A DNA stretch of 64,000 bases, from assembly GCF_001522865.1 (NCBI RefSeq), contig NZ_LOWB01000116.1:248001-312000 (forward strand), given 5' to 3'. Positions 27,638-48,351 of this stretch are shown piece by piece. The stretch's first letter is position 1. Every line of letters starts with the position of its first letter. The notes under the pieces were generated by a model that had not been told where the DNA came from, did no database searches, and saw nothing but the letters and a program-made list of their open reading frames with translations. This DNA is from Burkholderia sp. TSV86. Its GTDB lineage: Bacteria > Pseudomonadota > Gammaproteobacteria > Burkholderiales > Burkholderiaceae. The translations under genes were made by a program, and so were the position numbers.

Positions 27638-29224
27638 TCATCGCTGCAACCACAGATCGGCGAAGCTCGCGCCGACGCCGTCCGGCGACACCGTATGGCC
27701 ATGAACCGCGCGCGACGCCACCGTCACATATTGCGGCGCGACGAGATTGATATCGGGCAGATCGCGCTCGACGATGCGCTGAATGCGGACGAACGTCGCC
27801 TTGCGCTCGCGTTCGTCGGTCTGCTCGGCGGCCTGCGCGAACAGGCGGTTGACTTCGGGGTTGCGGTAGCGCGAGCCGTTCGTAAACGGCACGCCGGGTC
27901 GGAAACCGTCCGTCGTATATAGACGCGCGACGCCGACCACCGGATCGAACAGATTGCTCATGCCGTTGATGCTGAAATCGAAATCGCGATCGGTGTAGAC
28001 ACGCTTCAGGTACGCGGGCAGATCCTGTGTGCGCACCGTCACCGCGATGCCGGCGCGCGCGAGCGCCGATTTCACGTAAGCAGCGGTGCGCGCCGGAATG
28101 TCGCCGATCGGCAGCGCATCGGCGACGAGCGCGAAGCGCGTGCCGTCGGCCTTACGCGGATAGCCGGCCTCGTCGAGCAGCGCGTTCGCGTGGGCCAAGT
28201 CGAACGGATACGGATTCGGCGCCGGATCGTAATACCGGTTGCCCGGAATGATCGGGCTGACGATCGGCGTCGCGTAGCCGTAATAGATCACCTTGCGGAT
28301 CACTTCCCGATCGAGCGCCGACGCGATCGCCTGCCGTACCTTCAAATTGCGCAGCACCGGATGATCGAGATTGAACTCGATGCGCGCGACGCCCGCCTGG
28401 AATTCGTAGCCGCGCGTATCAAGCGCGAGCTTCGGATTCGCCTTTAGCCGCGCGAGTTCGGACAGCGGTACGGGCGTGTCGCCGGCGAGATCGGCCGAGC
28501 CGCTTTCGAGCGCGGCCACGCGTGCGGCCGGATCGTCGATGATCTTGACGAACAGGCGGTCAAGCCACGGTTTGCCTTTGTCCCAGTAATCGTCGTTGCG
28601 CGCGTATTCGATATAGTTGCCGCGCACCCATTTGACGAAGCGGAACGGACCGGTGCCGATGGGCGCGTTGTTGGCCGGATGGGTCAACGGATCGCGGCCG
28701 TCGTACACGTGTTTCGGCAGGATCGGCGTTTCGGTCGCGGAAAACGCGCTGATCAGATACGGCGCGGGCTTCGACAGCGTCAGCACGACGGTGTACGGAT
28801 CGGGCGTCGCCACGCTCGCCAGGTTCGCGAACGTGGTTTTCGCGCGCGGATGGTAGCGGCGCAGCGTGGCTAGCGAATAGGCGACGTCCGCGGCCGTCAG
28901 CGGCTGGCCGTCGTGCCATTTGACGCCGCGCCGCAGGTGGAACACGTAGCGGCGCGCGCCGTCGCTCACTTCCCACGACGTCGCGAGCGACGGCTTCGGC
29001 TTCAGGTCGAAGCCGTAGTCGAGCAGCCCTTCGATGACCTTCGGGCTCACTTTCAGCACGTTGACCGCGGTGGTCGCGAAATCGACGAGCGTGGTGGGCT
29101 CGGGCGTCACGATGAAGTTCAGCGTGCCGCCGCGCGTTTGCGCGAGCGACGAGCCGTGCGGCGCGACGATCGCGGCGGCGGCGGCGACGCACAGCGTGCC
29201 GGCCGCTCGCTTGGCCGCGCGCAT
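27638..29224 (-). CDS. ABC transporter substrate-binding protein, family 5
   Basis: 528-residue periplasmic solute-binding protein of family 5 (DppA/OppA/NikA type). From ATG 29224 a Sec signal is visible (RAAGTLCVAAAAAIVAPHGSSLAQ). An in-frame ATG at 29281 would add 19 residues and remains possible; starts further upstream run into the next gene. Family signatures are WHDGQPLTAADVAYSL, NNAPIGTGPFRF and the DYWDKGKP region. It is about half identical by eye to the binding protein at 44568-46169, so the two are paralogues with related ligands. No permease accompanies it, so it may use the membrane components encoded at 46263-50346. Its place between the desulfinase and flavoprotein genes points to an organosulfur ligand instead of a peptide. 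Confidence 0.9.
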   Translation of the reverse strand: MRAAKRAAGTLCVAAAAAIVAPHGSSLAQTRGGTLNFIVTPEPTTLVDFATTAVNVLKVSPKVIEGLLDYGFDLKPKPSLATSWEVSDGARRYVFHLRRGVKWHDGQPLTAADVAYSLATLRRYHPRAKTTFANLASVATPDPYTVVLTLSKPAPYLISAFSATETPILPKHVYDGRDPLTHPANNAPIGTGPFRFVKWVRGNYIEYARNDDYWDKGKPWLDRLFVKIIDDPAARVAALESGSADLAGDTPVPLSELARLKANPKLALDTRGYEFQAGVARIEFNLDHPVLRNLKVRQAIASALDREVIRKVIYYGYATPIVSPIIPGNRYYDPAPNPYPFDLAHANALLDEAGYPRKADGTRFALVADALPIGDIPARTAAYVKSALARAGIAVTVRTQDLPAYLKRVYTDRDFDFSINGMSNLFDPVVGVARLYTTDGFRPGVPFTNGSRYRNPEVNRLFAQAAEQTDERERKATFVRIQRIVERDLPDINLVAPQYVTVASRAVHGHTVSPDGVGASFADLWLQR

Positions 29225-29429
29225 GGCGCGGGGCGGGCGTGAGCCGCGCGGCGCGGCGCGCGTAAGCGCGATGAACGGCATGGCGGAAACGGGCGCGGCG
29301 CGCGATAAGCGCAACAGCAACGCGGACAGCGGCGAAGCGGCCGCGATAGCCGGACCGAACGAAATGGCAGAGTCGGCCGGACCGATCGATCCGGCCGGCG
29401 CGCGCATGAGGCGGACGATGCGCACGGCG

Positions 29430-30491
29430 TTACGCGGCCGCGTATTGCGCATGCGCGCGCCGTGCGTGCGCGGCGGCGAGCGGCGCGGGATCGATCCAGC
29501 TTGCGAAATCGAAGTCGGTCGCAATGAATCCCCATTGATGAAGGAACGATTTGAAGTCCTCGAGCGCGGCGAGCGCGTGCGGATCGAGTCCGATCGCAAG
29601 CTGCCGATGCAGGTCGGGCCCATACGCGCGCCGAACCCAGTGTTCGGCGCTGCGTGTCTCGCGCGCGACATAGCCGACGGCGTCGTCCGGATGCGCGCGC
29701 GCCCAGTCGTCGACGTCGAGCGTGCGCGCGAGCACGCGCTCGACGAGATCGGGGCGCTCGTCGAGCAGGCGCGCATCCACCGTCAGTGGGCGCGGCGTGC
29801 CGTTGTTCGCGTGTTTGCGCCGGTCGGGTTGCGCGCTGATGTCGACCAGCACGGTCGCGCCGAGCAGGTTGACGATGTCGAGGCCAGGCGCACCTTTGAC
29901 GAACACCACGTCTGCATCGCCGCGCAGCAGCGCCCGTACCTCGCGCGAATATTCGTGCGGCCGCTGCGCGGCGAGCCATTGCGCGAGCGGCGCGTCGGCG
30001 GGCGGGGCGGCATCGGCGAGATTGAGCGGCGAATGCGGCAGATCGACGAGTGTGACCGCTTCGAGCGGCACGTCGAGCGCGCCGAGCAGCGACGAAAATC
30101 CGCGCAGCGCGGTTGCGCGATGGAAATCGACGATGCCGGGCCGCGTGTTCAGCGGCAGCCCGAACCGCGCGCGGGCGAGCGCGGCGGGCGTCGGTTCGAG
30201 TGCGGGATCGAGCGTGATGAGCGCCTGGAATTCGTCGACCCAATTGAGCGCGATCACGCGCGTATCGCTGCCTTGCGCACGCGCCCACAGCGCGGGAATA
30301 TTGCCGCCTTGCCGGAACGACCACGGCTGGCTGTGCGTGAAGTGCGAGCGGCGGATGGCCGGATCGTCCGCATCCTGAAGCGCGCGGATGTCGAGGCCGT
30401 CCGGCGCGAATTCGTCGCGCAGCCAGCCTTTTTGGATGGCGATGCCGAATGGCGTCGGCGCGGGGCAGCGGGTGTACCAGAGCAGGTTCAT
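29430..30491 (-). CDS. DszB-family sulfinate desulfinase-like protein
   Basis: 353 residues from ATG 30491. The protein resembles 2'-hydroxybiphenyl-2-sulfinate desulfinase (DszB), an enzyme with the fold of periplasmic sulfonate-binding proteins but located in the cytoplasm. The catalytic set of DszB is Cys27, His60 and Arg70. Here the same elements appear as YTRCPAP (Cys9) and HFTHSQPWSFRQGGNIP (His50 and Arg60, same 10-residue spacing). A C-terminal segment GPDLHRQLAIGLDPHALAAL also matches the DszB pattern. No signal peptide is present, which argues against a transport role. The gene lies 50 bases after an FMN monooxygenase and upstream of a binding protein and DszC-like gene. The expected reaction is C-S cleavage of a sulfinate to release sulfite. 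Confidence 0.8.
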   Translation of the reverse strand: MNLLWYTRCPAPTPFGIAIQKGWLRDEFAPDGLDIRALQDADDPAIRRSHFTHSQPWSFRQGGNIPALWARAQGSDTRVIALNWVDEFQALITLDPALEPTPAALARARFGLPLNTRPGIVDFHRATALRGFSSLLGALDVPLEAVTLVDLPHSPLNLADAAPPADAPLAQWLAAQRPHEYSREVRALLRGDADVVFVKGAPGLDIVNLLGATVLVDISAQPDRRKHANNGTPRPLTVDARLLDERPDLVERVLARTLDVDDWARAHPDDAVGYVARETRSAEHWVRRAYGPDLHRQLAIGLDPHALAALEDFKSFLHQWGFIATDFDFASWIDPAPLAAAHARRAHAQYAAA

Positions 30492-30541
30492 GGTGTGGTC
30501 GGATCGAAAATAAGCATGAAGGAAAGACGAACGCAACGCGC

Positions 30542-31747
30542 TCAGCGGCGCAGGCCCGCTTCGCGCAACAGCGGCAGCACGCGCTGGCCGAAGAAATCGA
30601 GGTCCGGCTTGAAATCGAAGAAACTCAGCTGGATGCCGTCAATGCCGGCGCGATGCAGCCGCACGATCGCATCGGCGACTTCGTCCGGCGAGCCGACGAT
30701 CGTGATGTTGCCGCCGAGCGCACGTGCCGCCGCTTGCGTGCGCTGCGCGTGGCCGCCGCGCCATGCGTGCGCGTCGCTGTCGAAGCGGTGGAAGCTGCCT
30801 TCGTCCGCGTGTGCGACGATCGCATCGCGGTACGCGCGCGCTTCGGCGGCGGTTTCGCGGCAGATCACCATCGGGTTGATCAGCGTGCGGACCGTGCGCC
30901 CGTGCGCGGCGGCGGCGGCTTTCACGCGCGCGGTGTGCGCGGGCAGCGCGGCGAGCGCGGGTTCGATGTCGGGGCCCGCCGGGCTCGTGACGAACACGAT
31001 GTCCGAATAGCGCGCGGCGAATGCGATGCCGGCGTCGGAGCCGGTGGCGTTGATCAGCAGCGGGCGGCCGTAGCGCGGCTTCGGCGTGACGAACGCGCCG
31101 CCGAGCCGCCAGCTCGACAGTTCTGGCGTGAACGTGAAGTTGTCCGGCTGCGCCCACAGTTGTTGAACTGCGTCGACGAATTCGGCGGCGAGCCGGTAAC
31201 GCGTATCGTGCTCGATGCGCGGCCAGCCGAACATTTCATGTTCGACTGCGCGGTGCCCGGTGACGATGTTGATACCCCAGCGGCCGTTCGAGATGTGATC
31301 GAGCGTCGCGGTGAACTTCGCGAAATGCAACGGATGCCACGGCCCGTACAGCACGTGGCTCGTTGCGACGAGGATGATGCGTTCGGTGCGCGCGGTGAGC
31401 GCGGCGAGCGTCATGAACGAATCGAGCGCGTCGCCGTTGAACACGCCGCCGTAGCCGCCCTTGGGCAGCCATTGCGACAGCGCGAACACGAAGTCGAAGC
31501 CGAGCGCTTGCGCCGCCAGCACGAGTTCGGCGTTGTAGTCGAATGACCAGTCGGTCGTGCGCGGCAGCGTCGACGCGCTCCAGCCGCCGGCCTGAATCGG
31601 CAGGAACAGGCCGAGCATCAGTGGTTGCGCGAACGCGCGCGCGACGGGGCTATCCGGGAAATCGGCCGGCGCGCGAATGTCGACGAAAGGTGTCGGCGCG
31701 ACGGGCGGCACAGGGAATTCGGTTTCGACGAACGGTGCGTGACTCAC
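30542..31747 (-). CDS. FMNH2-dependent LLM-class monooxygenase (SfnG/RutA/DszA-like)
   Basis: 401-residue luciferase-like TIM-barrel monooxygenase, first gene of the minus-strand desulfurisation group. Recognisable blocks are DWSFDYNAELVLAAQALGFDF, the ILVATSHVLYGPWHP strand, GRWGINIVTGH (binding the flavin phosphate) and EHDTRYRLAAEFV. C-terminal IVGSPDEVADAIVRL is also typical. The pattern is closest to dimethylsulfone monooxygenase SfnG and pyrimidine oxygenase RutA, with DszA (sulfone monooxygenase) in the same family. The first 35 residues are Pro-rich and extend beyond the barrel. In this context it should insert oxygen next to sulfur, producing a sulfinate for the DszB-like enzyme 50 bases downstream. 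FMNH2 must come from a reductase not seen in the window. Confidence 0.88.
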   Translation of the reverse strand: MSHAPFVETEFPVPPVAPTPFVDIRAPADFPDSPVARAFAQPLMLGLFLPIQAGGWSASTLPRTTDWSFDYNAELVLAAQALGFDFVFALSQWLPKGGYGGVFNGDALDSFMTLAALTARTERIILVATSHVLYGPWHPLHFAKFTATLDHISNGRWGINIVTGHRAVEHEMFGWPRIEHDTRYRLAAEFVDAVQQLWAQPDNFTFTPELSSWRLGGAFVTPKPRYGRPLLINATGSDAGIAFAARYSDIVFVTSPAGPDIEPALAALPAHTARVKAAAAAHGRTVRTLINPMVICRETAAEARAYRDAIVAHADEGSFHRFDSDAHAWRGGHAQRTQAAARALGGNITIVGSPDEVADAIVRLHRAGIDGIQLSFFDFKPDLDFFGQRVLPLLREAGLRR

Positions 31748-32089
31748 GGCGGGTTTCCAGGGGTGGGCGGTACGCGTTGGTGCAACGGTTCAACGGCAAG
31801 CGACGCGACGCGTTGCCGTGACTTGACGACGGCGGGCGGCGATCCGGTTTCGATCGCGAGAGTTAAGCATGCGGGTGCGGTGTACCGCAAAGAACGATTT
31901 CTGCTTTTTATTTGAAACTAGACGTGCGCGCCGGTGCGATCGCATGCGCGCGTGGGCGCGTTGCGCATGAAGGCGTGGCGAGCCCGGCTTGCAGCCCTCG
32001 TTGACCGGCATTTCGGCGCGCTGATCGGGCAGTCCAGGGAGCCGCGCTGACTTTGCGTTCCATTCGGTATGGCCGCCATGGCCGGCTTG
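31748..32089. other. Divide between the desulfurisation operon and the NRPS operon
   Basis: No gene recognised. The part at 31885-31925 is AT-rich (minus strand TTTCAAATAAAAAG) and may hold the promoter and CysB/SsuR-type control of the desulfurisation operon. The left end of the biosynthetic operon, the stop of the P450 gene, is at 32090. It may also be one boundary of an inserted segment. Confidence 0.5.
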
Positions 32090-33316
32090 TCAATCGAGGC
32101 TGACCGGCAGCGTGCTGAAGCCGTGCAGGAAGTTGGAATAAATCGGGGTTAGCTGCCCGGCGGGGGTGATGCGGGTTACCGCCGTGCGCACCGCGTCCAG
32201 CAATGTAACGAGTTCGAGCCTGGCCAGTTGAGCGCCGATGCAGAAGTGCGGTCCGTACCCAAACGACAGGTGCGGATTGGGCCTCCGGTCCAGACGAAAT
32301 GAGTCGGGATCGGCAAACCTGCGCTCGTCCCGGTTCGCGGAGACATTCCATAGCGTCACGATGTCGCCCGCGCGGATTCGATGCTGGCCGAGCTGAACGT
32401 CGGTGAGCGCGATCCGGCCGAAATGCATCGTGGGAACGTGCCAGCGGACCACTTCCTCGGCCACCCGTTCGAGATCCACGGGCGCGAACCGGAACGCGCG
32501 CCATAGCTCGGCGTGTTGCGCGAACGTATGCATCGCGCCGATCATGGACAGCCGGCTGGTCTCGTCCCCGCCGAGCAACAGGCTGTAGCAGTTGGTCACC
32601 ACTTGCTCGTCGGTCAGTCTCGCTCCGTTCACCTCGGCCTGGACCAGCCTGCCGACCAGGTTCTCGCCGGGGTGGCGGCGTTGCCGTGCCACGTGCTCGA
32701 GAAAATAGAGCAGAATGTCCTGCCGCGCGGCTGCCCCGTCCGGATCGGCTTGATCCTCGTGCTCGCTGCTCAGCGCCTGTTTGTCCCAGGCGATCAGCAG
32801 CTCATGGTCGTCCTCGGGCACGCCGAGCAGCTCGCAGATGGTCCAGATCGGCACTCGGCAGGCGATGGTGTGGGCAAAATCGAAAGCGCCGGCGCCAACG
32901 TGTTCGGCGAGCAACGCCCCGGTTCGGCGGCGAAGCAGGTGCTCGATGCGCGCGATCGCGTCCTTGGACAGCGCGGGGGCGATCAGTTTGCGCAACTCGC
33001 CGTGCCGAGGCGGATCGGTGACGGCCAGCATCTGGCCGGCGGCGGAATCCCCGCCGGCCAGCAGAGTCAGCAGCACGTTGCCGCGCTGCGAGCTGAACCG
33101 GCCGGGGTCCCGGTACACCGAGATCAAGTCGTGGTAGCCGGCCAGCACCCAAAACCCGGGCGCGGCCCCATTGACCGCCGGGTGCCAGCGCACCGGCTGG
33201 TGGGCGCGCGCCCATCGCCAATACTCGGTCATATCGGCACGCAAGTGCGTTCGCGGATCGGTGAGGTCGAGGTCGACGAACGCCATCGTGCATGATCGTT
33301 CAGTGGGCATAGCCAT
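32090..33316 (-). CDS. Cytochrome P450
   Basis: 408-residue bacterial class I P450, last gene of the biosynthetic operon. The heme-binding loop is FGYGPHFCIGAQ with the thiolate Cys near residue 359. The K-helix ExxR is in ERVAEEVVRW. The I-helix is LLLGGDETSR, where the usual acid-alcohol pair is Glu-Thr. The first 18 bases overlap the end of the NRPS gene, indicating translational coupling. ATG 33286 (MAFVDLDL) is an alternative start. P450s in NRPS clusters usually hydroxylate a carrier-bound amino acid or tailor the released product. No ferredoxin or reductase gene is present nearby, so electrons must come from general partners. Confidence 0.93.
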   Translation of the reverse strand: MAMPTERSCTMAFVDLDLTDPRTHLRADMTEYWRWARAHQPVRWHPAVNGAAPGFWVLAGYHDLISVYRDPGRFSSQRGNVLLTLLAGGDSAAGQMLAVTDPPRHGELRKLIAPALSKDAIARIEHLLRRRTGALLAEHVGAGAFDFAHTIACRVPIWTICELLGVPEDDHELLIAWDKQALSSEHEDQADPDGAAARQDILLYFLEHVARQRRHPGENLVGRLVQAEVNGARLTDEQVVTNCYSLLLGGDETSRLSMIGAMHTFAQHAELWRAFRFAPVDLERVAEEVVRWHVPTMHFGRIALTDVQLGQHRIRAGDIVTLWNVSANRDERRFADPDSFRLDRRPNPHLSFGYGPHFCIGAQLARLELVTLLDAVRTAVTRITPAGQLTPIYSNFLHGFSTLPVSLD

Positions 33317-36300
33317 GGCTGAATTCGGTCCGTTCCAGTTCGTCGGCCAGCACTTGTCCGATCTCCGCGAGGCTGGACTCCGTGCTCAGGCCGTTGTGCG
33401 TTCCGGTGACCGGCCGCTCGACGGTGTTCCCGTCTACGTGGGCTGCCCATTGTTCAGCCTTGCGCTGCGGGTCCGGGGCGCCTGGCTGGTGCGTCTCCAG
33501 CGCCCGGACGTAGATCAGCCGGCCCCGGAACTGGCCACGCGGCACGTATCGCCGGGAGAGCACGTAGTTCCTCTTGTGCAGATCGAACATTCGCTGGAAA
33601 TGGTCGTCCGACAACAACGCGTATGGGCTGCCAAGACGATCCAACTCCACCTTGATCTCGGACAGCGGCGCGGTGTCCCAGAGACCTGGCTCGATCGGCG
33701 TGGTTTCCGCGAGCATGGTCAGGAAGTATCGGCGCAGTGTCTGGTTTCGATCGAAGTCGTCGGTGGACGCGTCGAACGGTGTCGGCGGCGGCGGCGAGCT
33801 GTCCAGCAGGATCACCGAGCCTACCTGCTGCCCGGCCCGCTGCAACGCGACAGCCATTTCGAACGCCACTCGCCCGCCGAACGACCAGCCGAGCAAATGG
33901 TATGGCCCGGCGGGTTGGAATGCGCTGATCTGCGCGAGATAGTCGGCGGCCAGTTCCTCCACCGATTCCGGCCAATAGCCGGCGTTGCTGAGGGTCCTGG
34001 CCTGAAGCCCGACGATTGGCCGATCCGGCAGGTGCCGCAACAGGCCGGCGTAGCCCCAGCCCAGGCCGGTTGCCGGATGCATGCAAAACAACGCCGGCCG
34101 TCGGCCGGTCCGGCGTAACGGCAGCAGCACGTCCAGCGAATCGGTCACGCTGCCCGGCAGATCGAGCGATGCGGACAAGGCCTGCGGCGATGGGGCTTCC
34201 AATAGCGATCTCATCGACAGGTCCGCGCCCAGCATGGTTCGCACCTTCAGCACGAGCTTCGCGGCGAGCATCGAATGCCCGCCCAGTTCGAAGAAATTGT
34301 CCGCGCGGCCCACTTGGGCCCGGCCCAGGACTTCGGCAAAGATCTGGCAGAGCAGATGTTCCTGCGGAGACTGGGCCAGCGCCTGCGCATCCATGCGCGG
34401 GTGGGCAGGGGCAAGCGCCGGGGCGGGGGCCAGCTCGGGCAAAGCGTGATAGTCGATTTTGCCGTGCCGGGTGCGGGGCAGACGATCAACGGCGATGACC
34501 CGGTCCGGAGTCAGGTAGCGTGGCAGCCGGTGCGCCAGATAAAGCACCAGCGCTTGGGGCGTGGCTTCACCGGCGAGCACCGCATACGCGAGCAGTTGCT
34601 CGCCGGTGGCGATCACCGCTGCTTGCCGGACGTCGGGGTGCGTTTGCAGCGCGGCCTCCACGTCGCCAGGTTCGATCCGCCGGCCGCGCAGCTTGATCTG
34701 CCGGTCGCACCGGCCGACGAATTCCAACTGGCCGTCCGGCAACTGCCGGACCCGATCGCCGGATCGGTAACGGCGTGTCCCATCCGGTCCGGTGACGAAC
34801 TGCTCGCCGGTCAATGCGGGATGGTGCAGATAGCCGAGCGCAACGCCGTCGCCGCCGATCAGCAACTCCCCGATCGTTCCGGCGGGCACCGGCCTGAGCC
34901 GCTCGTCCACCACTTGCGTGGTGCAGCCGGGAATCGCCCGCCCGATCGGCACGATGGCGAGATCGTCGAGTTCTTCGCTGATCGTCGCGCACACGGTGGC
35001 TTCGGTCGGCCCATAGGCGTTACGCAACCGGTGGCGCGTGCGCCACCGGCGCAGCAATCCCAGGCCGGGGCGCTCGCCGGCTACCATGATGCGCAGCCCG
35101 GCGGGCACCCGCTCCTCAGGGACGGTCGCCAGTACCGACGGCACCATGATCAAGTGCGAGACGCCATGAGCGGTGATGGCGCTGGCGATGCCGTCACCGT
35201 GGCTCAACTCGTCGAAACCCGCGAACACGGCGGTCGCGCCGCAGCACAATGCGAGCGTTAGTTCCGCGATCGACGCGTCGAATGTGATCGGCGCAAACTG
35301 CAACACTCTGGCTCCCACGCCAGCGTTCATCGCGTCCGCATGCGCGTGCGCCATGCCCAAAATCCCCCGGTGGCTCACCATCACGCCCTTGGGATAGCCC
35401 GACGAGCCCGAGGTGAAGATGAGATAGGCGGGGTCCTGAGGGTGGAGCGCAGACGGGGGCATCGCGGTGTCGGCATCGGCGGCATCGGCGTCGGCGGCAT
35501 CGGCGTCCGCCTCGGCGCCTGCTTGCGGCATTGGTTCGGCGGTGAGGGTAGGGATGTCCGCCAACGCCGGCGTGCCGATGGTGTCCGGTTCGACGATCGC
35601 GATGACCGGCGCGGCCATGTCGAGCACGTGCGTCAGCCGCAACGTCGGCCGCCCGAGATCGAGCGGCAGGTAGATCGCACCGAGCCGCCAGACGGCCAGC
35701 ATCGCCGCGGCGGCGAGCGGCGAGGGGCCGCTGGTCACGGCGACTACGTCGCCTTTCACGACGCCGTGCTGCGCCAGCCGTCTGGCCAACCGTGAGCACC
35801 ACGCTTCAAGCGCCTGATAGGTCAACGATCGCGAACCAGCGGCGACTGCGGGCACAAACGGGGTCCGCCGCGCCTGTTGCGCAAATGCGGCTGGCCAGCT
35901 CTGCCATGCCGGCACGGGAGACGATGGCCGCTGGCGAGGCGTGTGCGCGTCATGCGCGACATTCAGCTCGCGCACGATGCCGCGCGGCGAGTGCACCGCC
36001 TGCTCGATCAACGCGCACAGTCGGTCCAATAAACCACGCAGCCGCGCGACCGGATATTGCGCCGGATTCCCGGCCAATTGCAGTTCCAGCGAACCGCCGG
36101 CCGCCGGTCTGCATACAGTCAGTTCCAATCCGGGCACCGGCCCGTAATTGCACGGATGGATCGTTGCGTTCACCGCGCCGAAATCGGGCCGCAACTCGTC
36201 GAACAACATCATGTTCAGCCCGGCCCCGGTGGGAGCGGGCCGGCCCGCGGCAAGCAGATCACGCCGGATATCTTCCCTGCGGTATCTCTGATGCCGCAAC

Positions 36301-37253
36301 GCCGCCCGGATCGCCGCACGCGCCGATCCGATCACCGACTCGAGTGTGTCGTCGGAGCGCATGGGCACCCACAGCGGCACCCGATTGACCGCGACGCCGG
36401 CGGTACGCCGTAGCGCGTCGGAATTGCGGCCGCTCACACTCAACTCCAGCAGTGCGTTGCCGGCGCCAAGCAGTACTGCCAGGCAACCGGCGATGACCGC
36501 CGTGGCCCCCGGCCGCCGCTCGCTCACCGATTCCACCGCGTCGGACAGCGGCTTCGGCAACCGCCGGCGGACTCGCGCCGGCGCATCGTCCGCAGGCGCA
36601 GGGGCAATCAACGGTTTGGTCACGGCGCCCATGGCGGTCAACCAGTAATCCCTGTCACGAAGGAACGCGTTGGACTGCCGGTAGTCCGCTTCCGCTCGCA
36701 AAAGCGTGGCCACGCCGGTGTTGTCGATCAGCGGCGCGCGCGCGCCGGCGCAGAGCGCGCGGTAAGTCCGCGCGATCCACCATAGCCGCCAGCGGGCGGC
36801 ATGGCCGTCCACCACCGCATGATGGCCGCGCGACGCTAACAGGTGCAGGTGCGGCGATACCCGGATCAATACGAGCGTCCAGGCGCGCTGATCGGCAGTC
36901 AGGACCGGCTTCGACATCCATGTCGACAGCCATCGCCATCCCGACGTGAGTGCGTCCGGCCGGCCGGTCATATCGACGACTTCGAGGACGTTTGGCGGCG
37001 AGCCGCACTCGGTCATACGCGTGCGGTCTGCGTCTTCGACCACAATCCATTGCGCGGTTTCGTCGTGCTCGACTACCCACCGAGCCGCGTCGACTAGCCG
37101 ATCCACATCCAGGCTCCCGGTCAGCACGACGATCTCTGCCACCAAGTAAGGGTCCGCCCGCCCCAGCGGCGCCTGCGCGAGCCAGATTTCCTCCTGCGCC
37201 CGGGACAGCTGATGGACGGAGGGCTGCCGTGGCCTTGTCCGTGCGGCAGTCAT
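33300..37253 (-). CDS. Single-module NRPS, C-A-T-TE
   Basis: 1317-residue nonribosomal peptide synthetase from ATG 37253, which overlaps the previous stop as ATGA. Domains in order: condensation (about 12-430) with the complete active motif HHAVVDG near 143-149; adenylation (about 450-930) with TSGSSGYPKG, NAYGPTEAT, YRSGDR and the catalytic Lys in RHGKIDY; thiolation with FFELGGHSML (phosphopantetheine Ser near 992); thioesterase (about 1075-1310) with GWSFGG (nucleophile Ser near 1122). A hand alignment to GrsA gives a tentative specificity code of D-A-A-I-M-A-A-V-C-K, suggesting a hydrophobic residue. An Ala/Asp repeat (ADADAADADAADAD) lies before the A3 motif. The intact leading C domain implies that an acyl or amino-acyl donor is supplied by another carrier or as a thioester. 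Confidence 0.94.
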   Translation of the reverse strand: MTAARTRPRQPSVHQLSRAQEEIWLAQAPLGRADPYLVAEIVVLTGSLDVDRLVDAARWVVEHDETAQWIVVEDADRTRMTECGSPPNVLEVVDMTGRPDALTSGWRWLSTWMSKPVLTADQRAWTLVLIRVSPHLHLLASRGHHAVVDGHAARWRLWWIARTYRALCAGARAPLIDNTGVATLLRAEADYRQSNAFLRDRDYWLTAMGAVTKPLIAPAPADDAPARVRRRLPKPLSDAVESVSERRPGATAVIAGCLAVLLGAGNALLELSVSGRNSDALRRTAGVAVNRVPLWVPMRSDDTLESVIGSARAAIRAALRHQRYRREDIRRDLLAAGRPAPTGAGLNMMLFDELRPDFGAVNATIHPCNYGPVPGLELTVCRPAAGGSLELQLAGNPAQYPVARLRGLLDRLCALIEQAVHSPRGIVRELNVAHDAHTPRQRPSSPVPAWQSWPAAFAQQARRTPFVPAVAAGSRSLTYQALEAWCSRLARRLAQHGVVKGDVVAVTSGPSPLAAAAMLAVWRLGAIYLPLDLGRPTLRLTHVLDMAAPVIAIVEPDTIGTPALADIPTLTAEPMPQAGAEADADAADADAADADTAMPPSALHPQDPAYLIFTSGSSGYPKGVMVSHRGILGMAHAHADAMNAGVGARVLQFAPITFDASIAELTLALCCGATAVFAGFDELSHGDGIASAITAHGVSHLIMVPSVLATVPEERVPAGLRIMVAGERPGLGLLRRWRTRHRLRNAYGPTEATVCATISEELDDLAIVPIGRAIPGCTTQVVDERLRPVPAGTIGELLIGGDGVALGYLHHPALTGEQFVTGPDGTRRYRSGDRVRQLPDGQLEFVGRCDRQIKLRGRRIEPGDVEAALQTHPDVRQAAVIATGEQLLAYAVLAGEATPQALVLYLAHRLPRYLTPDRVIAVDRLPRTRHGKIDYHALPELAPAPALAPAHPRMDAQALAQSPQEHLLCQIFAEVLGRAQVGRADNFFELGGHSMLAAKLVLKVRTMLGADLSMRSLLEAPSPQALSASLDLPGSVTDSLDVLLPLRRTGRRPALFCMHPATGLGWGYAGLLRHLPDRPIVGLQARTLSNAGYWPESVEELAADYLAQISAFQPAGPYHLLGWSFGGRVAFEMAVALQRAGQQVGSVILLDSSPPPPTPFDASTDDFDRNQTLRRYFLTMLAETTPIEPGLWDTAPLSEIKVELDRLGSPYALLSDDHFQRMFDLHKRNYVLSRRYVPRGQFRGRLIYVRALETHQPGAPDPQRKAEQWAAHVDGNTVERPVTGTHNGLSTESSLAEIGQVLADELERTEFSHGYAH

Positions 37254-38023
37254 AGGAGGGTCTCCCCGCCGACGCGCGCTGTCAGGCTGAGCACGCCCTT
37301 CAGCAGGCAGCGTTCCCCCCAGAACGCGTACCGCCCGTGCAGGACCCGGCGGTTGTGCATGAATACCGCATCGCCCGCCATCAACGGGATCGGTGTCACC
37401 AGGCCGCCATCCACCAGCCGTTGTTCGCAGAACCCGGCGAACCGGGCGCACATGTCAATGACCGGGGCCGGGTTGTCCGGCGCGACCCGGGTGCTGCTCC
37501 AATTCAATACCGGACCCGCGCCGTCATATTCGATCACGCGCCTGGTCACGGTGCGCTCCCCCTTGGTGAACCGCACGTTCACCTCGCGCAGCGACCGCAG
37601 CAGCGCGGGATCGCAGGCCGCAAGGTAGTCCGTGACGAGCGCGTCGTCCACCGCGAACGTCGCGCCGCCGAACCGGGCAGGGGTTTCGCAACACAGGAAG
37701 AAGACGTCGAACGCCACGTCGCTGTATGCGCCGTCGACATGCAGCGGCATCCGGCCGTTGCCGTACCGGTATTGCGCGGTGGCCGCCAGCGTGGCGTCGT
37801 AACGGATGTCCAGCCAGCCGGCATGGTCCAGTCCACCGGTCACCGGGTCCTCGTCGCGGAAATGAAAGTCGCCGATCTCGCCGGCCAGCTTCTGATAGAA
37901 GGCGTCGCTGTCGGCGTGCGACGCGCGTCGCAGCACCACCACCTTGTGCCCGGTCAGCGCGGCGCGCAGCCGCTCGCCGGTGCTGGCGCTGCGCGATTCG
38001 CGGATCTCAGTGAGAAATCGCAT
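37250..38023 (-). CDS. TauD/TfdA-family Fe(II)/2-oxoglutarate dioxygenase (third of three)
   Basis: 257 residues from ATG 38023, overlapping the upstream dioxygenase gene by 17 bases and the downstream NRPS by 4. The iron site is visible as PLHVDGAY (His-x-Asp) and the distal His in MHNRRVLHGR. The sequence AFWGERCLLKGVLS lies where the 2-oxoglutarate-binding Arg usually is. The protein is shorter and more divergent than the other two dioxygenases of the operon. It resembles clavaminate-synthase-like and amino acid hydroxylases of natural product clusters. It probably hydroxylates, desaturates or halogenates an amino acid; halogenation is unlikely because the Asp of the His-x-Asp motif is present. 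Confidence 0.88.
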   Translation of the reverse strand: MRFLTEIRESRSASTGERLRAALTGHKVVVLRRASHADSDAFYQKLAGEIGDFHFRDEDPVTGGLDHAGWLDIRYDATLAATAQYRYGNGRMPLHVDGAYSDVAFDVFFLCCETPARFGGATFAVDDALVTDYLAACDPALLRSLREVNVRFTKGERTVTRRVIEYDGAGPVLNWSSTRVAPDNPAPVIDMCARFAGFCEQRLVDGGLVTPIPLMAGDAVFMHNRRVLHGRYAFWGERCLLKGVLSLTARVGGETLL

Positions 38024-38879
38024 GGCTTGCCTCCCGTTGTCGTGCCCGGCTCGGCGCGATGCCGTCACTGACCAGCACGCGATGAATCTCGCGCCGCTGC
38101 CCGTGATAATCGTTGAGCGCGTAGTGCTGCACGCAACGGTTGTCGATCACCACGAGCAAGCCGCGCGTCCATTGAACTCGGCCGACAAACCGCGTGTCGA
38201 CGATTTGCTGGGACAACTGTTTGATCAACCGCTCGCTCTCGAGCACGTTCATGCCGACTATGCCGGTCATGTGGCAGGCGCTGACATAGAGTCCGTTGCG
38301 GCCAGTCGACGGATGCGTCCGCACGATGGGATGGATGTACGTCTGGTCGGCACGCGCCCGATCGTCGATTCGTTGTACGTCGCCGATGGAAAACCGGGGC
38401 GTACCGCTGCCGTGAACCTTCGACGCGGTGAAAATCCCGTCGAGCGACGCAATCCGTTCCTTCATGTCGGCCGGCAACGCTTCATACGCTGCGCGCATGT
38501 TCGCGACCAACGTGTCGCCGCCGTGGCGAGGAATGTCCACGCCGCGCAGCACGGTGTAGGCCGGCGGGATCTCGTGGTACGGCGAATCGGTGTGCCACAC
38601 GCCGCCGAAGTTGCTGGTCGAATCGCGTTCCTTGACGATGCGGAAGATTCCCGGATAGCCATTCAATGGCTTGCCGAACGGATATTCGGCGATCGTCCCC
38701 AAGCGCCGTGCGAACGACAAGTGCGCACCGGGATCAAGCGCCTCCCGCCCCTCGATACACACCACATGCCGGTCCAGCAGCACCTGCATGATCTTGCCGA
38801 ATTCGTCCGGCTCCAGCCGGTCGATCCGCACGCCACTGATCCGCGCACCGATGGCCGGTGCGATATCGACCACCTGCAT
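38007..38879 (-). CDS. TauD/TfdA-family Fe(II)/2-oxoglutarate dioxygenase (second of three)
   Basis: 290 residues from ATG 38879, with a strong GGAGG ribosome-binding site. The longer open frame to 39116 lacks such a site and overlaps the neighbour's end closely, so I reject it. This is a canonical TauD-type enzyme: APAIGARISGVRI start, VWHTDSPY (His-x-Asp iron ligands), the distal His in NRCVQHYALNDY and Arg residues in GQRREIHRV for 2-oxoglutarate. The substrate is unknown; TauD relatives oxidise taurine, herbicides, sulfonates and free or carrier-bound amino acids. The third dioxygenase gene overlaps its end by 17 bases. A 241-base gap separates it from the radical-SAM-like gene upstream, the only sizeable gap in the operon. 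Confidence 0.92.
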   Translation of the reverse strand: MQVVDIAPAIGARISGVRIDRLEPDEFGKIMQVLLDRHVVCIEGREALDPGAHLSFARRLGTIAEYPFGKPLNGYPGIFRIVKERDSTSNFGGVWHTDSPYHEIPPAYTVLRGVDIPRHGGDTLVANMRAAYEALPADMKERIASLDGIFTASKVHGSGTPRFSIGDVQRIDDRARADQTYIHPIVRTHPSTGRNGLYVSACHMTGIVGMNVLESERLIKQLSQQIVDTRFVGRVQWTRGLLVVIDNRCVQHYALNDYHGQRREIHRVLVSDGIAPSRARQREASHAISH

Positions 38880-39120
38880 TGCAACCTCCGCATTTCTTTG
38901 TCGATTCGTTGTTGAACGTCCCGGCCGGGCATACGGCACGGGGCCGGACGCGCGAGCGGCTGCGCAGCGCAGCGGCGCGCTGAACGAAGCGAGCCGGCGC
39001 GGTGCGCGACAGGGCGCTCTCCACGCCGTGGACGGCCGCTGCACAAGCCGAATGCCGCTGCCCGTGCCGCAAGCCTGCTTTCTGCGCGCCAACATGCCAG
39101 GTGAATGCCTGGCCACGTGC

Positions 39121-40140
39121 TCAGATTTCCCGCATGGGCTGCCATGTCTGGAAGACTCCGCACTGCCGCGGCTTGGCCAACTGCCGGCCGGACCTCACTT
39201 CGTCATGAGTCGGCACCGGGTCGCGCCGCCAGGCGTCCAATTGATCGAGATCGAGCGTCGAACGGTGTCGCCACGGCAATCCCGGATAGTCGGCGGGCAT
39301 GGACGTGATGGTCGGCACGGGCAGCCGGCCAGCGTAGAGGCGGCCCGCCCATAGATCGCCGCTGCCTTCGAGCACGCCGACGCGATCGCGGTCCAGCAAC
39401 CGGCTCACCGGCAGATCCGGCGGAATGCGCAAACTGTTCTCCGCGCCCGGAAGGTCATGCCGCCAGATCCACTCGACCAGTTCGTCCTGCCGCCGGTTGA
39501 GCCGCTCATCGGCGAAAACCGAACTCATCACCACCGGCACAGCCACGCCGCCCGCCTGCCGGTAGGACAACAGGCCCGCCAACCGTTGCCGCAGTTGACC
39601 CGGCGTGTCCAACGCGCTCACGGACACCCGCAGTTCGGCACCCACCTGAACTAATCCGGATTGCGTGTCCGGGGCGATCACCCGAAAGTACTTCGTGACG
39701 AACACGGTGCATCGGCCGGCATCGCGGATCAGCTTCGCGAGCGCATACGCTTTGGGCCAGTTCCACGACGCGTCGCTGTTCCAGCCGTTGCGCAAAAAGC
39801 GCTGCTCCGGCGGCAACGAAAGGAGATCCGCCTGCAGCTGATCCGCGTCGAGCAGGTTCTCCACGCGAATGCCGAAGTCGTAGTCCGCGGCGAACGCACC
39901 ACGGGCGGCGAAGCAGCTGCCATAGCAAATCTGCGATGCGGGCAGACAGCCCATGTACAGATCGGTCGTGAGGCTGTCGAATGGAAGCCCGCCATGCCGT
40001 CCGGCCCGAATCGCGACCGGCGTGGGGGATCGCAGCGCGTGGCCTGCCGTCATGCTGCGACCGCTTTCGGCGATCAACGAATGCGCGTCGTGCAGCACCG
40101 CGATGGGGATGATGGGCACGGTGTCTGAGTGATGAGACAT
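39121..40140 (-). CDS. Radical-SAM-like protein with C-x6-C-x3-C motif
   Basis: 339 residues from ATG 40140 (AGAGGAA upstream). Not a clearly recognised family. Around residue 62-75 it has YMGCLPASQICYGSCFAARG, giving C-x6-C-x3-C. The flanks resemble the cluster motif of SplB-like radical SAM proteins (GC-x3-C-x2-CYA) with insertions between cysteines. Further blocks look like radical SAM barrel strands: YALAKLIRDAGRCTVFVTKYF, ELRVSVSALDTPGQLRQRLAGL (shortened) and GVAVPVVMSSVF. If it binds a [4Fe-4S] cluster the geometry would be atypical; zinc binding is the alternative. It is 25 bases after the first dioxygenase gene and part of the same operon, so it should act in making the precursor or tailoring the product. 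Confidence 0.7.
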   Translation of the reverse strand: MSHHSDTVPIIPIAVLHDAHSLIAESGRSMTAGHALRSPTPVAIRAGRHGGLPFDSLTTDLYMGCLPASQICYGSCFAARGAFAADYDFGIRVENLLDADQLQADLLSLPPEQRFLRNGWNSDASWNWPKAYALAKLIRDAGRCTVFVTKYFRVIAPDTQSGLVQVGAELRVSVSALDTPGQLRQRLAGLLSYRQAGGVAVPVVMSSVFADERLNRRQDELVEWIWRHDLPGAENSLRIPPDLPVSRLLDRDRVGVLEGSGDLWAGRLYAGRLPVPTITSMPADYPGLPWRHRSTLDLDQLDAWRRDPVPTHDEVRSGRQLAKPRQCGVFQTWQPMREI

Positions 40141-40165
40141 GGTGGCTGTTCCTCTGTCGTCGGAA

Positions 40166-41005
40166 TCATCGTTGAATGTCCAGATTTGCAACCGCTTCTC
40201 CGCCAGGCACCGCGAACATGTCCGTGGGGGCGAAGATTTTGGTGGCCTTCAGCCAACGTCGGCCACGAAAGGCTTCGCGCCGATGCAGCAACTGGGCGTT
40301 GTCGTAAAGCGCGAAATCGCCGGTGGCCCACTGATGAGCGTAGATGCGCTCCGGCCGCAGCATTCGGGCCAACACGCGGTCCTTCAGCGCGGCCGATTCG
40401 GCGGCATCCAAGCCGGTAAAGCCCTGGGTGTTCTCGCTGACGTAGGCGAAGCGTTTGCCCGATGTTGGACTCACGAGCAATGCCGGGTGCGACACTCGGA
40501 GTTTGGGCACGTTGTCATGGTTGTACGCCGGCTCATAGGCCGCGCGCCGAGTGGCAAGATTCGCGATGGTAGTCTCGTCCAGACTGGCCGTCGCGACATC
40601 GGTCGACACGAAGCTGGTCGCTCCGCCGGAACTCGCGGGAATCACGCAATACAAGATCGCGAGCGTCGCCGGATTTTGCCGATGCTGCTGATCCGAGTGC
40701 CAGCAATCCGTGTCGGCTCCGGCGAAACCGATGGGCTTGCCGTGTTCGTCGCGCAAATTGGATAAATAGCTGATTGCCGGATAGTCGGGGGACAAGCAGA
40801 TTCTCCGCGACGACTCTTCCAACGGACCAATCCGTCGCGCCAATGCGTGCAGTTCCCGATCGTCGAGACATTGACGCCGGAATATCACCAAGCCGGCCTG
40901 CGCGACCAGCCGCAGAAAGCCTGCCTGATCGTCGGGCGAACACGCCTGGAGTGCGACACCACTGACCTGTAGGCCGAGCGTGTCCGATAGTGGCTCTACT
41001 TTCAC
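40166..41005 (-). CDS. TauD/TfdA-family Fe(II)/2-oxoglutarate dioxygenase (first of three)
   Basis: 279 residues, first gene of the biosynthetic operon. I choose GTG 41005 because AGGAGA lies six bases upstream and the protein then begins VKVEPLSDTLGLQVSG, the normal family N-terminus. An ATG at 41071 would add 22 residues without a ribosome-binding site. Iron ligands are in DCWHSDQQH (His-x-Asp) and LLHRREAF (distal His), with Arg residues in FRGRRWLKATK for 2-oxoglutarate. The segment SGGATSFVSTDVA matches amino acid-acting relatives. It may prepare the unusual amino acid used by the NRPS. The AT-rich region upstream should contain the operon promoter. Confidence 0.9.
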   Translation of the reverse strand: MKVEPLSDTLGLQVSGVALQACSPDDQAGFLRLVAQAGLVIFRRQCLDDRELHALARRIGPLEESSRRICLSPDYPAISYLSNLRDEHGKPIGFAGADTDCWHSDQQHRQNPATLAILYCVIPASSGGATSFVSTDVATASLDETTIANLATRRAAYEPAYNHDNVPKLRVSHPALLVSPTSGKRFAYVSENTQGFTGLDAAESAALKDRVLARMLRPERIYAHQWATGDFALYDNAQLLHRREAFRGRRWLKATKIFAPTDMFAVPGGEAVANLDIQR

Positions 41006-41635
41006 GGTATCTCCTGAGCCGGGAATGAGAACCGAATGCCGGCGGCGAGCGCCTCGGGATTCGGGATTCAAAGTGCGGCTGCTGCGGGATGCATCTAATT
41101 AAGGTTGATCGAATAAGATGGATGGATTTCTGGTATTAATATTTTCGGGGTTTAATTATTTTAATGAATTTAACACAAGCTTCCTTTGTTTGCCTTTGGC
41201 GGTTGGGGCGATGGCCTTATATAGGTTGCAATGCAATGGCATGATTCGTGTGGCCAATTCATAATAAGTAGATTAGACGGGGCGGGAAAGATATCAAGAA
41301 TTTATTCAAATAAAAAAGTGTGTGAGCGGTGAATAAAGGGATGGAATTTTCGTGAATTGAGATGCGGGTAATTTCCTATGTTCGGGCGATGTTTGATTTG
41401 CGGATTAATGTCTGGCTGATGGATTTGGCTTGGTTTTATCGAAGATCTTCGATCGCTCTATTGCCGTGGCTTTCGATTTCATTCTTTCTCTCTTTCATTT
41501 GCCTGCGCTAATCCGCTTAATGCGAAAAGGCATCCGAATCACAGCCGTGAGCGGCGGCCCATTCAACGCGCAACGCGTCCGGCGGAACTGCGCAACATTC
41601 ACCGGCTGGCGCGTGAAGCTCCAAGTTGTCCGGGC
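41006..41635. other. AT-rich promoter region of the biosynthetic operon
   Basis: No gene recognised. The part from 41090 to 41450 is strongly AT-rich compared with both flanks, consistent with a promoter/silencing region such as H-NS targets. The right part from about 41540 shares sequence with the region after the inverted YVTN copy. Confidence 0.6.
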
Positions 41636-41662
41636 AAAGCCGCGCGCAAGCGGCGCGGCTTT
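41636..41662 (-). terminator. Hairpin downstream of the intact YVTN gene
   Basis: AAAGCCGCGC (41636-41645) and GCGCGGCTTT (41653-41662) form a perfect 10-bp stem with a 7-base loop, about 100 bases after the stop of the minus-strand YVTN gene. The T-run is only three long. A related hairpin is found after the second copy at 44220-44235. Confidence 0.55.
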
Positions 41663-41758
41663 GTCGCATCGAATCGGCGGGATCGGGCGAACGGAGGCGA
41701 AACGGGATGAGGGCGGCTCGCTCGCCGAGCCCAGGCCCGCTTGCCGGCTATATCGGTC

Positions 41759-42913
41759 CTATCGGCCAAACGGCATCAAAAGCATCGCGCCGCTCGCTGG
41801 CGCCGTATTGGCTCCACCGAAAGTTGTCGAGCCTCGCACGCGAATGACCGACACGCTGGCCGATGTCCCATTGACGACATAAGCCGTCACCCCGTCCGGC
41901 GTGAATGCAACGCCGTTAGGCCTCTGGCCGGTGAAGTTGGTCACGACGCCGGTCTGTGTATTCGACGCGACGTCGATCACCGAGACCGTGTTGGAGTTCG
42001 CGTTGGTCACATATGCGGTATACGCGATCGTTCCCGCGCTCGTCGGGGCGGATGTGAAGGCGACGGCCAAGGGCGCGACGCCGGTGAAGCCGGAAACAGT
42101 GCCGATCTGGGTGTTCGACGCGACATCGATCACCGAGACCGTATTCGAATTGTAGTTGGTGACATAGGCTTTCTTTCCGTCCGGCGTAATCGCGATGTTC
42201 GCGGGCGCCGCGCCGGTGAAGCCCGCGACGGTGCCGATCTGAGTGTTCGCGCCGACATTGATTACCGAGACCGTATTCGAACCGTAGTTGGCGATGAAGG
42301 CTTTTGTGCCGTCCGGCGTAATCGCGATGCTGCTGGGCAAGAGGCCGGTGTAGCCTTTGACCAGGTCAATCACGGTTTTCGACGCGACATCGATGACCCC
42401 GATCGCGCTCACCGGCGAGGTCGAGTAGGCCACATAGGCTTTCTTTCCGTCCGGGGTGAACGCGATGCCCTCGGGTGTTCCGATGGGGCCGGAAACGGTG
42501 CCGATCTGGGTGTTCGACGCGACATCGATTACCGAGATCGTGCTCGATCCTGCATTGACGACATACGCTTGCGTTCCGCTCGGCGTGAAGGCGATGTCAT
42601 AGGGAAGCCGCCCGGCGAAGTTGAGAATGGTGCCGGTCTGCGTGTTCGACGCGACGTCGATCACCGAGACCGTGCCTGAGAACAGATTGGTGACGTAGGC
42701 GCGCTTGCCGTCCGGCTTGATTGCGATTTTCGTGGGCGTATCACCGGAGAACGAGGCGACCGTGCCGATCTGGACGTTGTTGGCCGCGTAGGCGGCCACC
42801 GGCGCGGTTGCCGCCACCACGGCGGCCAGCGCGAGCGCGGAGCACTTTGCGGCGAATCGTCCGGCATTCATTGGCTGACGCGGCCGCGCCAGCGGCATGA
42901 GTTGTCGACGCAT
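41759..42913 (-). CDS. Secreted YVTN-family seven-bladed beta-propeller protein
   Basis: 384 residues from ATG 42913, with AAAGGAAA just upstream. A Sec signal (FAAKCSALALAAVVAATAPV then AAYAANN) is followed by seven repeats of the YVTN type. Each has a GTKAYVTN-like strand and a TVSVIDVASNTQIGTV-like strand. Repeats end at blade seven with SVSVIRVRGSTTFGG and the protein closes with LLMPFGR. Such propellers occur in surface-exposed or periplasmic binding proteins with unknown ligands. The gene is part of an inverted duplication: a second, mutated and internally deleted copy lies at 43677-44154 on the plus strand with a nearly identical upstream region. Confidence 0.9.
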   Translation of the reverse strand: MRRQLMPLARPRQPMNAGRFAAKCSALALAAVVAATAPVAAYAANNVQIGTVASFSGDTPTKIAIKPDGKRAYVTNLFSGTVSVIDVASNTQTGTILNFAGRLPYDIAFTPSGTQAYVVNAGSSTISVIDVASNTQIGTVSGPIGTPEGIAFTPDGKKAYVAYSTSPVSAIGVIDVASKTVIDLVKGYTGLLPSSIAITPDGTKAFIANYGSNTVSVINVGANTQIGTVAGFTGAAPANIAITPDGKKAYVTNYNSNTVSVIDVASNTQIGTVSGFTGVAPLAVAFTSAPTSAGTIAYTAYVTNANSNTVSVIDVASNTQTGVVTNFTGQRPNGVAFTPDGVTAYVVNGTSASVSVIRVRGSTTFGGANTAPASGAMLLMPFGR

Positions 42914-43110
42914 GATGTTTCCTTTTTACCGATGAGTGGAATTCCGCGCTGGCTCGGACGGAGCCGAGGCGACTGAAAGGCTTGACCGTTCGCAGCCTTC
43001 TTTCCGATGGGTTGATCGACCGGTTCGGGTAAGAACGCCGCCCATCGGATTTAAAGCGTTTTTTTCTCCAATATCACCGGCTATCTTCTGGAGGATAACG
43101 TCCAAATATA
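42850..43110. repeat. Inverted repeat, left arm (5' end and upstream of the YVTN gene)
   Basis: The reverse complement matches 43480-43740; position x pairs with 86590 minus x around a centre at 43295. Matching is nearly complete from the YVTN ribosome-binding site through about 170 bases upstream and becomes patchy at the outer end near 43081-43110. Confidence 0.85.
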
Positions 43111-43479
43111 AAGCGAAATACCGTTCTCTATCCTATGAGTCGATGAACAAGCCATGATTTATTTAAACGCCTTTTTAATGAGGATGGTGTCGGCGTGGCG
43201 GCATTGGGCTTGGGAAAAACGGCCGATCGCGGTTGCATGGTCCGAGTCGATTCGAAAACGGAAGCGAATTCCGTTTGATTAAACGTTTGCTTAAGCAGCT
43301 TGCCTTATCTGTGCGAGTGGCTTGCCGATTCGTTGCCTGAGCGTTGCCGATTCGGATAACGCGTGTTCCAGGTGCGCTGCGCAGTCAAGAATGATTTCTG
43401 TTTATTTGAAATTCGATACTTGGGGGCGCTGGTATGCGGAGGGCATGAGGGGGCACCGCGGCGGCGGAAGGCGCTGCGT
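43111..43479. other. Spacer between inverted repeat arms
   Basis: About 370 bases with no recognised gene, AT-richer than the arms. It should carry the divergent promoters of both YVTN copies. Confidence 0.5.
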
Positions 43480-43740
43480 TGTATTTAGCGTTTATCCTCC
43501 CGCAGGTGACCGGTGATATCGGAGAAGAAAACGCTTTAAATCCGATGGGCGGCGTTCTTACCCGAATCGGTCGATCAACCCATCGGAAAGAAGGCTGCGG
43601 ACGGTCAAGCCTTTCAGTCGCCTCGGCTCCGCCCGAGCCAGCGCGGAATTCCACTCATCGGTAAAAAGGAAACATCATACGCCGACAACTCATGCCGCTG
43701 GCGCGGCCGCGTCAGCCAATGAAGGCTGTGCGGTTTGCCG
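43480..43740. repeat. Inverted repeat, right arm
   Basis: Right counterpart of 42850-43110. Landmarks shared in opposite orientation include GATTTAAAGCG, CCCATCGGAAAGAAGG-type sequence and the AAAAAGGAAACATCAT ribosome-binding region. Confidence 0.85.
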
Positions 43741-46169: not shown

Positions 46170-46262
46170 GCCGGGCGCCGCCGCGCGTTCGCGCGAAGAA
46201 TACGCGCCGGACGCATCCGGGCGGCGCATTTCGGCCGCGTTGAAACCACACAAGGAGAACCC

Positions 46263-47243: not shown

Positions 47244-47289
47244 TGCCCGCCCGCGCACTCCGATACCTGTTTGTATGGAGAGATATCCG

Positions 47290-48342: not shown

Positions 48343-48351
48343 GGGGGCGGC

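Follow-up and report, generated by a model that had tools for sequence, protein, structure and literature searches.

The natural-product operon found in the window (the whole 64,000-nucleotide stretch of DNA analysed here) is real, and it is not assigned to any known pathway. What sets it apart most is the pair formed by its first two genes, TauD1 and CxC, which becomes visible as a separate unit only when the operon is set beside its relatives. We read the whole, tentatively and with a confidence that stays a little short of probable, as a laterally acquired operon of two sub-modules for a small, oxidised, peptide-like metabolite.

The six genes and their counterpart in Burkholderia singularis

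The preliminary description had placed six minus-strand genes at 32090-41005, and all of them were confirmed, namely TauD1, CxC, TauD2, TauD3, a C-A-T-TE NRPS and a P450 (Table 1), with Pfam recognizing the three TauD proteins, the NRPS domains and the p450. TauD1, TauD2 and TauD3 all match PF02668 over the cut-off and carry the HxD...H metal triad of the TauD/TfdA family: the HxD and the distal His are conserved in all 10 aligned homologues of TauD1 and are present in TauD2, and in TauD3 the HxD is present and the distal His was identified by eye. The nearest solved relatives of TauD2 are phenoxypropionate dioxygenase and TauD (PDB 6d0o, E = 6e-53), and the PDB relatives of TauD3 are weak. 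The four NRPS domains were found over their cut-offs with their core motifs, the P450 exceeds the PF00067 cut-off and has the heme-Cys motif, and no stop or frameshift interrupts any of the six genes. The earlier interpretation as a natural-product operon of redox enzymes and one NRPS module is supported. The overlaps of 4 and 17 bases that had been ascribed to the set hold for three junctions (17 bases at TauD2/TauD3, 4 at TauD3/NRPS and 17 at NRPS/P450), but TauD1/CxC and CxC/TauD2 are separated by gaps of 25 and 241 bp, so that cotranscription across the latter is putative.

Table 1. Predicted features of the six-gene set, with starts read from the upstream sequence and differences from B. 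singularis LMG 28154 (small counts for TauD1, CxC, TauD2 and TauD3)
Feature	Position	Strand	Start	Properties	Difference from LMG 28154
TauD1	40166..41005	-	GTG 41005	Fe(II)/2OG dioxygenase family; first gene; partner of CxC; PF02668, 138 bits	3 nt; dN/dS 0.17
CxC protein	39121..40140	-	ATG 40140	orphan family; four invariant Cys (P0005 C82, C89, C93, C344)	2 nt; dN/dS 0
CxC CX6CX3C motif	39913..39948	-		position +3 after third Cys is an invariant Ala, not Cys (alignment)	
TauD2	38007..38879	-	ATG 38879	Fe(II)/2OG dioxygenase family; PF02668, 190 bits	2 nt; dN/dS 0
TauD3	37250..38023	-	ATG 38023	divergent TauD-superfamily oxygenase; PF02668, 81.6 bits	5 nt; dN/dS 0.52
NRPS C-A-T-TE, 1317 aa	33300..37253	-	ATG 37253	Condensation, AMP-binding, PP-binding, Thioesterase	dN 0.0066; dS 0.0173
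NRPS C domain	35946..37211	-		PF00668, 80.6 bits; HHAVVDG (HHxxxDG intact)	
NRPS A domain	34458..35885	-		PF00501, PF13193; alignment to LgrA	
NRPS T domain	34170..34355	-		PF00550; GGHS	
NRPS TE domain	33381..34094	-		PF00975; GWSFGG and GTHNGL	
Cytochrome P450	32090..33316	-	ATG 33316	last gene; PF00067, 65.7 bits; FGYGPHFCIG	41 nt; dN/dS 0.17

Outside the six genes, oligopeptide-type ABC transporter genes (27638-29776 and 44568-50346) flank the operon, and their link to the product is a candidate one only. For the start region of a YVTN beta-propeller gene (41759-42913), a near-copy in inverted orientation was noted by eye at about 43.5-43.7 kb, and inverted cross-matches at 80-83% were recorded in 42900-43700.

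Over 12.9 kb that include the operon, the identity to B. singularis LMG 28154 (locus L004) is 98.3%, and so the host, whose genome comprises 5.8 Mb in 135 contigs, would be a B. singularis-like Burkholderia. All six genes recur in LMG 28154 with protein identities of 96.6-100%, all frames are open, and the genes differ by 2 to 41 nucleotides each, with dN/dS of 0 to 0.52, values that for TauD1, CxC, TauD2 and TauD3 are drawn from small counts of differences. When 29491-41990 of the window was compared with the same strain, 0-2 differences per 500 bp were counted from 41990 to 37491, 0-19 across the NRPS gene, and 5-22 from 33490 down, that is, in the P450 gene and beyond; such a profile may point to a boundary of recombination inside the NRPS gene. 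A study of 263 Burkholderia isolates (PMC7912996) reports activity of another B. singularis strain, LMG 28155, which was retained by no fraction, and nothing links that activity to the six-gene operon.

Two linkage groups and lateral transfer

Twelve loci spanning two Burkholderia lineages, Streptomyces and one enterobacterial genus were compared: the window (with L004 counted together with it), L005 of Streptomyces violaceorubidus, G014 (the other Burkholderia), G129 (L011), G117 (L012), and seven of 13 enterobacterial loci (L018 and L031-L036), the remnant in G256 (L013) and the match in G130 being excluded. TauD1 and CxC occur together in all 12, adjoining each other in 11 and standing one gene apart in G117, mostly without a nearby NRPS; they form the first linkage group. 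Around the pair, no match to the NRPS, TauD2 or TauD3 was found in the stretches read from the seven enterobacterial loci, G129 and G014, some of which are short contigs or are cut by a contig end (9.9 kb in G014). Since the pair is found without these matches in nine loci, it is taken to have a function of its own.

The second linkage group consists of TauD2, TauD3 and T-TE, which lie beside TauD1 and CxC in two Streptomyces-genus loci, L005 and G117. In the former the gene order is that of the window (TauD1-CxC-TauD2-TauD3-T-TE, at 65-75% identity, with 75% for TauD2 and 66% each for TauD3 and T-TE), and in the latter an RlmN-like gene is inserted (TauD1-RlmN-like-CxC-TauD2-TauD3-T-TE-MFS; 57% for TauD2, 53% for TauD3 and 49% for T-TE). 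TauD3 was sought in the Streptomyces genus and the fetched loci, and at E <= 1e-30 it was recognized in two of 392 Streptomyces-genus genomes, both times at a CxC locus (chance about 1.3e-4). Beyond the window and L004, the compared stretches, in which the C domain, A-domain orthologues and the P450 were sought, contain no relative of C-A or of the P450 save a 24% P450 match in L013. Conservation of the six genes as a unit holds for LMG 28154, but in the two Streptomyces-genus loci only TauD1, CxC, TauD2, TauD3 and T-TE are kept.

These distributions bear on the preliminary proposal that the five oxidative genes build one amino acid, which they do not support as it was put: TauD1 and CxC occur without NRPS matches, and TauD2 and TauD3 go with T-TE in L005 and G117. 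In its fuller form this alternative has all five oxidative genes acting in series on one amino acid, which the module then activates, condenses and releases. In its favour, the window and LMG 28154 both retain the complete set, with dN/dS below 1. Against it, the pair is found elsewhere apart from NRPS matches, and the C domain, the A orthologue and the P450 are unmatched in L005 and L012; we consider the series unlikely.

Homologues of CxC are scarce. At E <= 0.001 they were found in three of 65 genomes of the window's genus (the window counted), one of 100 in its family (the window) and two of 398 in its phylum (the window and G1151), in 13 of 30 genomes of the genus of G1151 (11 long and two partial matches) and one of 119 in the family of G1151 (the centre genome), and in five of 392 Streptomyces-genus genomes (the centre genome counted; of these, G256 has only a fragment, and the match in G130, of 22 bits, contains a stop) and one of 396 Actinomycetota (the centre genome itself), counts from which distant relatives may be missing, as several of the searches scored few candidates per genome. 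No CxC match was found in plasmids with either the window or the enterobacterial query, no relative of CxC or of the RlmN-like proteins was confirmed in viral contigs, and the operon DNA gave a single match of 2% to plasmids, in the P450 gene.

The TauD1 and CxC proteins of the window are 70-75% identical to Streptomyces sequences, whereas their identity to those of the other Burkholderia is 45-50%. In maximum-likelihood trees of 12 sequences for each protein, the window joins the two Streptomyces-genus loci L005 and G129 (100/99 for both genes), and the other Burkholderia, G014, groups with the enterobacterial sequences (92/93 and 95/95); according to a warning of the tree programme, G117 and G014, which have long branches, are possibly misplaced, and the branches that unite the window with L005 and G129 are short. 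Because the pair of the window groups with Streptomyces and not with the other Burkholderia, it is judged from these trees to have crossed phyla, the cluster being partly acquired from Streptomyces-type bacteria.

The surroundings of the pair vary. MFS genes were found in the stretches read from L005, G117, G129 and six of the seven enterobacterial loci, and none is in the operon of the window. In L031 and L033-L036 the pair lies near fnr-like and universal-stress-like genes, and in L032 it occupies another chromosomal site, near flagellar-type genes (both seen by eye). A class I methyltransferase match was recognized in L018, L033, L034 and L036. By eye, the TauD1 gene of L031 is shortened at its start and lies beside a transposase-like gene, and G256 has only fragments of TauD1 and CxC (L013:9284-9885), a decayed copy.

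The CxC protein

The label 'radical-SAM-like', which CxC had been given at the outset, found no library match: there was none in Pfam (to E = 10), NCBIfam (to 0.001) or, by profile, the PDB (to E = 10), and nothing significant in PHROGs, where one of four proteins, a relative, gave a chance-level match (E = 0.28). The family is conserved. CX6CX3C is invariant in 12 of 12 aligned homologues, the same alignment keeps C82, C89, C93 and C344 together with RxGWNSDxSW, FxTKxF and ENSLR, and the spacing of the conserved positions is near-constant in 17 sequences. Probably, CxC is a metal enzyme, of the Fe-S or another type, that relies on these four invariant Cys.

A canonical radical SAM enzyme was considered and rejected, as neither PF04055 nor another radical SAM profile matches CxC, which has no CX3CX2C and in which no Cys stands at +3 after CX6CX3C in any of the 12 sequences; radical SAM families with motifs other than CX3CX2C are known. 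The Cys motif of the phage-type GP88 proteins (PF17338) looks like that of CxC, but it is spaced CX5CX3C in 83 of 84 GP88 sequences as against CX6CX3C, and the profile comparison was negative, with scores at or below those of shuffles. With RlmN, CxC shares the C-x6-C-x3-C layout (C-x6-C-x3-C-x2-C in RlmN) and a C-terminal Cys-Gly, but it differs from RlmN/Cfr in that the fourth Cys of the cluster is absent and the profile similarity is not significant: the hhalign score of 17.5 compares with a median of 14.8 and a maximum of 22.6 in 40 shuffles, and in hmmsearch the RlmN-like proteins did not outrank shuffled letters. A forced local alignment, with a score within the shuffled range, pairs the four invariant Cys of CxC with four of the five invariant Cys of RlmN-like proteins, the fifth position being Ala in CxC (or Ala/Ser if the one-residue gap of the aligner is kept). 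Four C:C pairs arose in none of 150 column shuffles and three pairs in three of them, and the Cys are not paired in a global alignment. By eye, the CxC segment SVSALD...QAGGVAVPVVM gives the impression of strands from the later part of a radical SAM barrel.

An RlmN-like radical SAM gene accompanies the pair in six of the 12 loci (L011, L012, L018, L032, L033 and L036), and no such match was found in the window, L004, L005, L014, L031, L034 or L035. The four RlmN-like proteins aligned have five invariant Cys. Because the two that were scanned start only at position 67-71 of the RlmN profile and score 203 and 235 bits, below the NCBIfam cut-off of 290, these two are unlikely to be housekeeping RlmN. 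In G129 (L011:6659-9290), TauD1-CxC is directly followed by an RlmN-like gene without the RlmN N-terminal part and then by a B12-type radical SAM gene, an arrangement that would represent a different route from the same pair.

A bolder view, which we regard as possible but doubtful, makes CxC the first representative of a metalloenzyme family that has not been described, a radical-SAM/RlmN-type barrel minus one cluster Cys (C-x6-C-x3-C-x2-Ala, with the C-terminal Cys-Gly kept) and obligate partner of a TauD oxygenase. Together the two would transform a small metabolite by new C-H or C-C chemistry, and they would be a mobile biosynthetic part moved between Streptomyces, Burkholderia and an enterobacterial genus.

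The assembly line and the predicted pathway

No described pathway of the same composition was found in the open-licence PMC literature, in agreement with what had been stated before. AMB biosynthesis, in which a template-bound residue is the substrate of two Fe(II)/2OG oxygenases, resembles the operon in combining a small NRPS set with two such oxygenases and a TE, and differs from it in that the five amb genes described include no CxC, third TauD or P450 (PMC4357302). By analogy it is the closest model known to us. The operon of the window differs further in consisting of a single C-A-T-TE module and lacking an A-T-C protein. It has one NRPS and three TauD proteins as against the two NRPS proteins and two Fe/2OG oxygenases of an AMB-type set. 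In L005 the assembly line is split into an A-T-C protein, a stand-alone A and T-TE, with three TauD proteins; this recalls AMB biosynthesis, where AmbB has the domain order A-T-C. The A domain of the window is 31-32% identical to either A domain of L005, and its C domain has no match there at 1e-4, so the residues joined may differ between the two. The A-domain code of the window, read by eye against the GrsA positions, is D-A-A-M-M-A-A-V-C, which is not known to match any substrate and was set aside.

The external donor proposed earlier seems to be needed, with no A-T upstream of the C domain in the operon; in S. violaceorubidus the A-T-C protein is separate and one A domain stands alone. C-domain matches number 27 in the genome of the window, 26 of them exceeding the cut-off and that of the window itself counted, so it is possible that the donor is supplied in trans. 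In 19.9 kb of L012 there is a T-TE, but nothing that matches the C or A domain of the window, so its T-TE would need to be loaded in trans. This locus, with TauD2, TauD3, T-TE and an MFS gene following the pair, agrees with another alternative, namely that T-TE is a platform on which a single modified amino acid, an antimetabolite, is oxidised and released, the C domain of the window being vestigial or adding a blocking group; at 82.5 bits this domain has the second lowest score of the 26. However, its HHxxxDG is intact, and L005 retains an A-T-C protein with a recognizable C domain, and we rate this alternative as still less likely than the series. That the cluster is decaying or silent, with no active product in Burkholderia, is improbable: the degraded remnant in G256, the shortened TauD1 of L031 and the greater divergence of the NRPS and P450 genes between strains are set against six uninterrupted genes, intact tested motifs and dN/dS of 0 to 0.52 between two strains.

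For the reading that we prefer, the operon of two sub-modules, we infer every chemical step, substrate, order and product as follows. TauD1 and CxC probably supply a small peptide-like compound with an unusual building block, which they would form by acting in sequence on a free small metabolite. The A domain would load an amino acid, either this block itself or a residue attached to it, onto the T domain, and there TauD2 and TauD3 would oxidise the carrier-bound residue, as AmbC and AmbD do on the Amb template, a role suggested by their linkage to T-TE and by analogy. The C domain would couple the T-bound residue with a donor, acyl or aminoacyl, that is formed elsewhere, the TE would release a dipeptide-sized product, and the P450 would finish it.

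In short, a conserved family that is absent from the searched libraries lies here in a compact gene set, which may mean new chemistry and offers a handle for genome mining. Moreover, as the pair occurs without a nearby NRPS in the enterobacterial genus, its reaction could be studied with these two proteins alone, without an assembly line.
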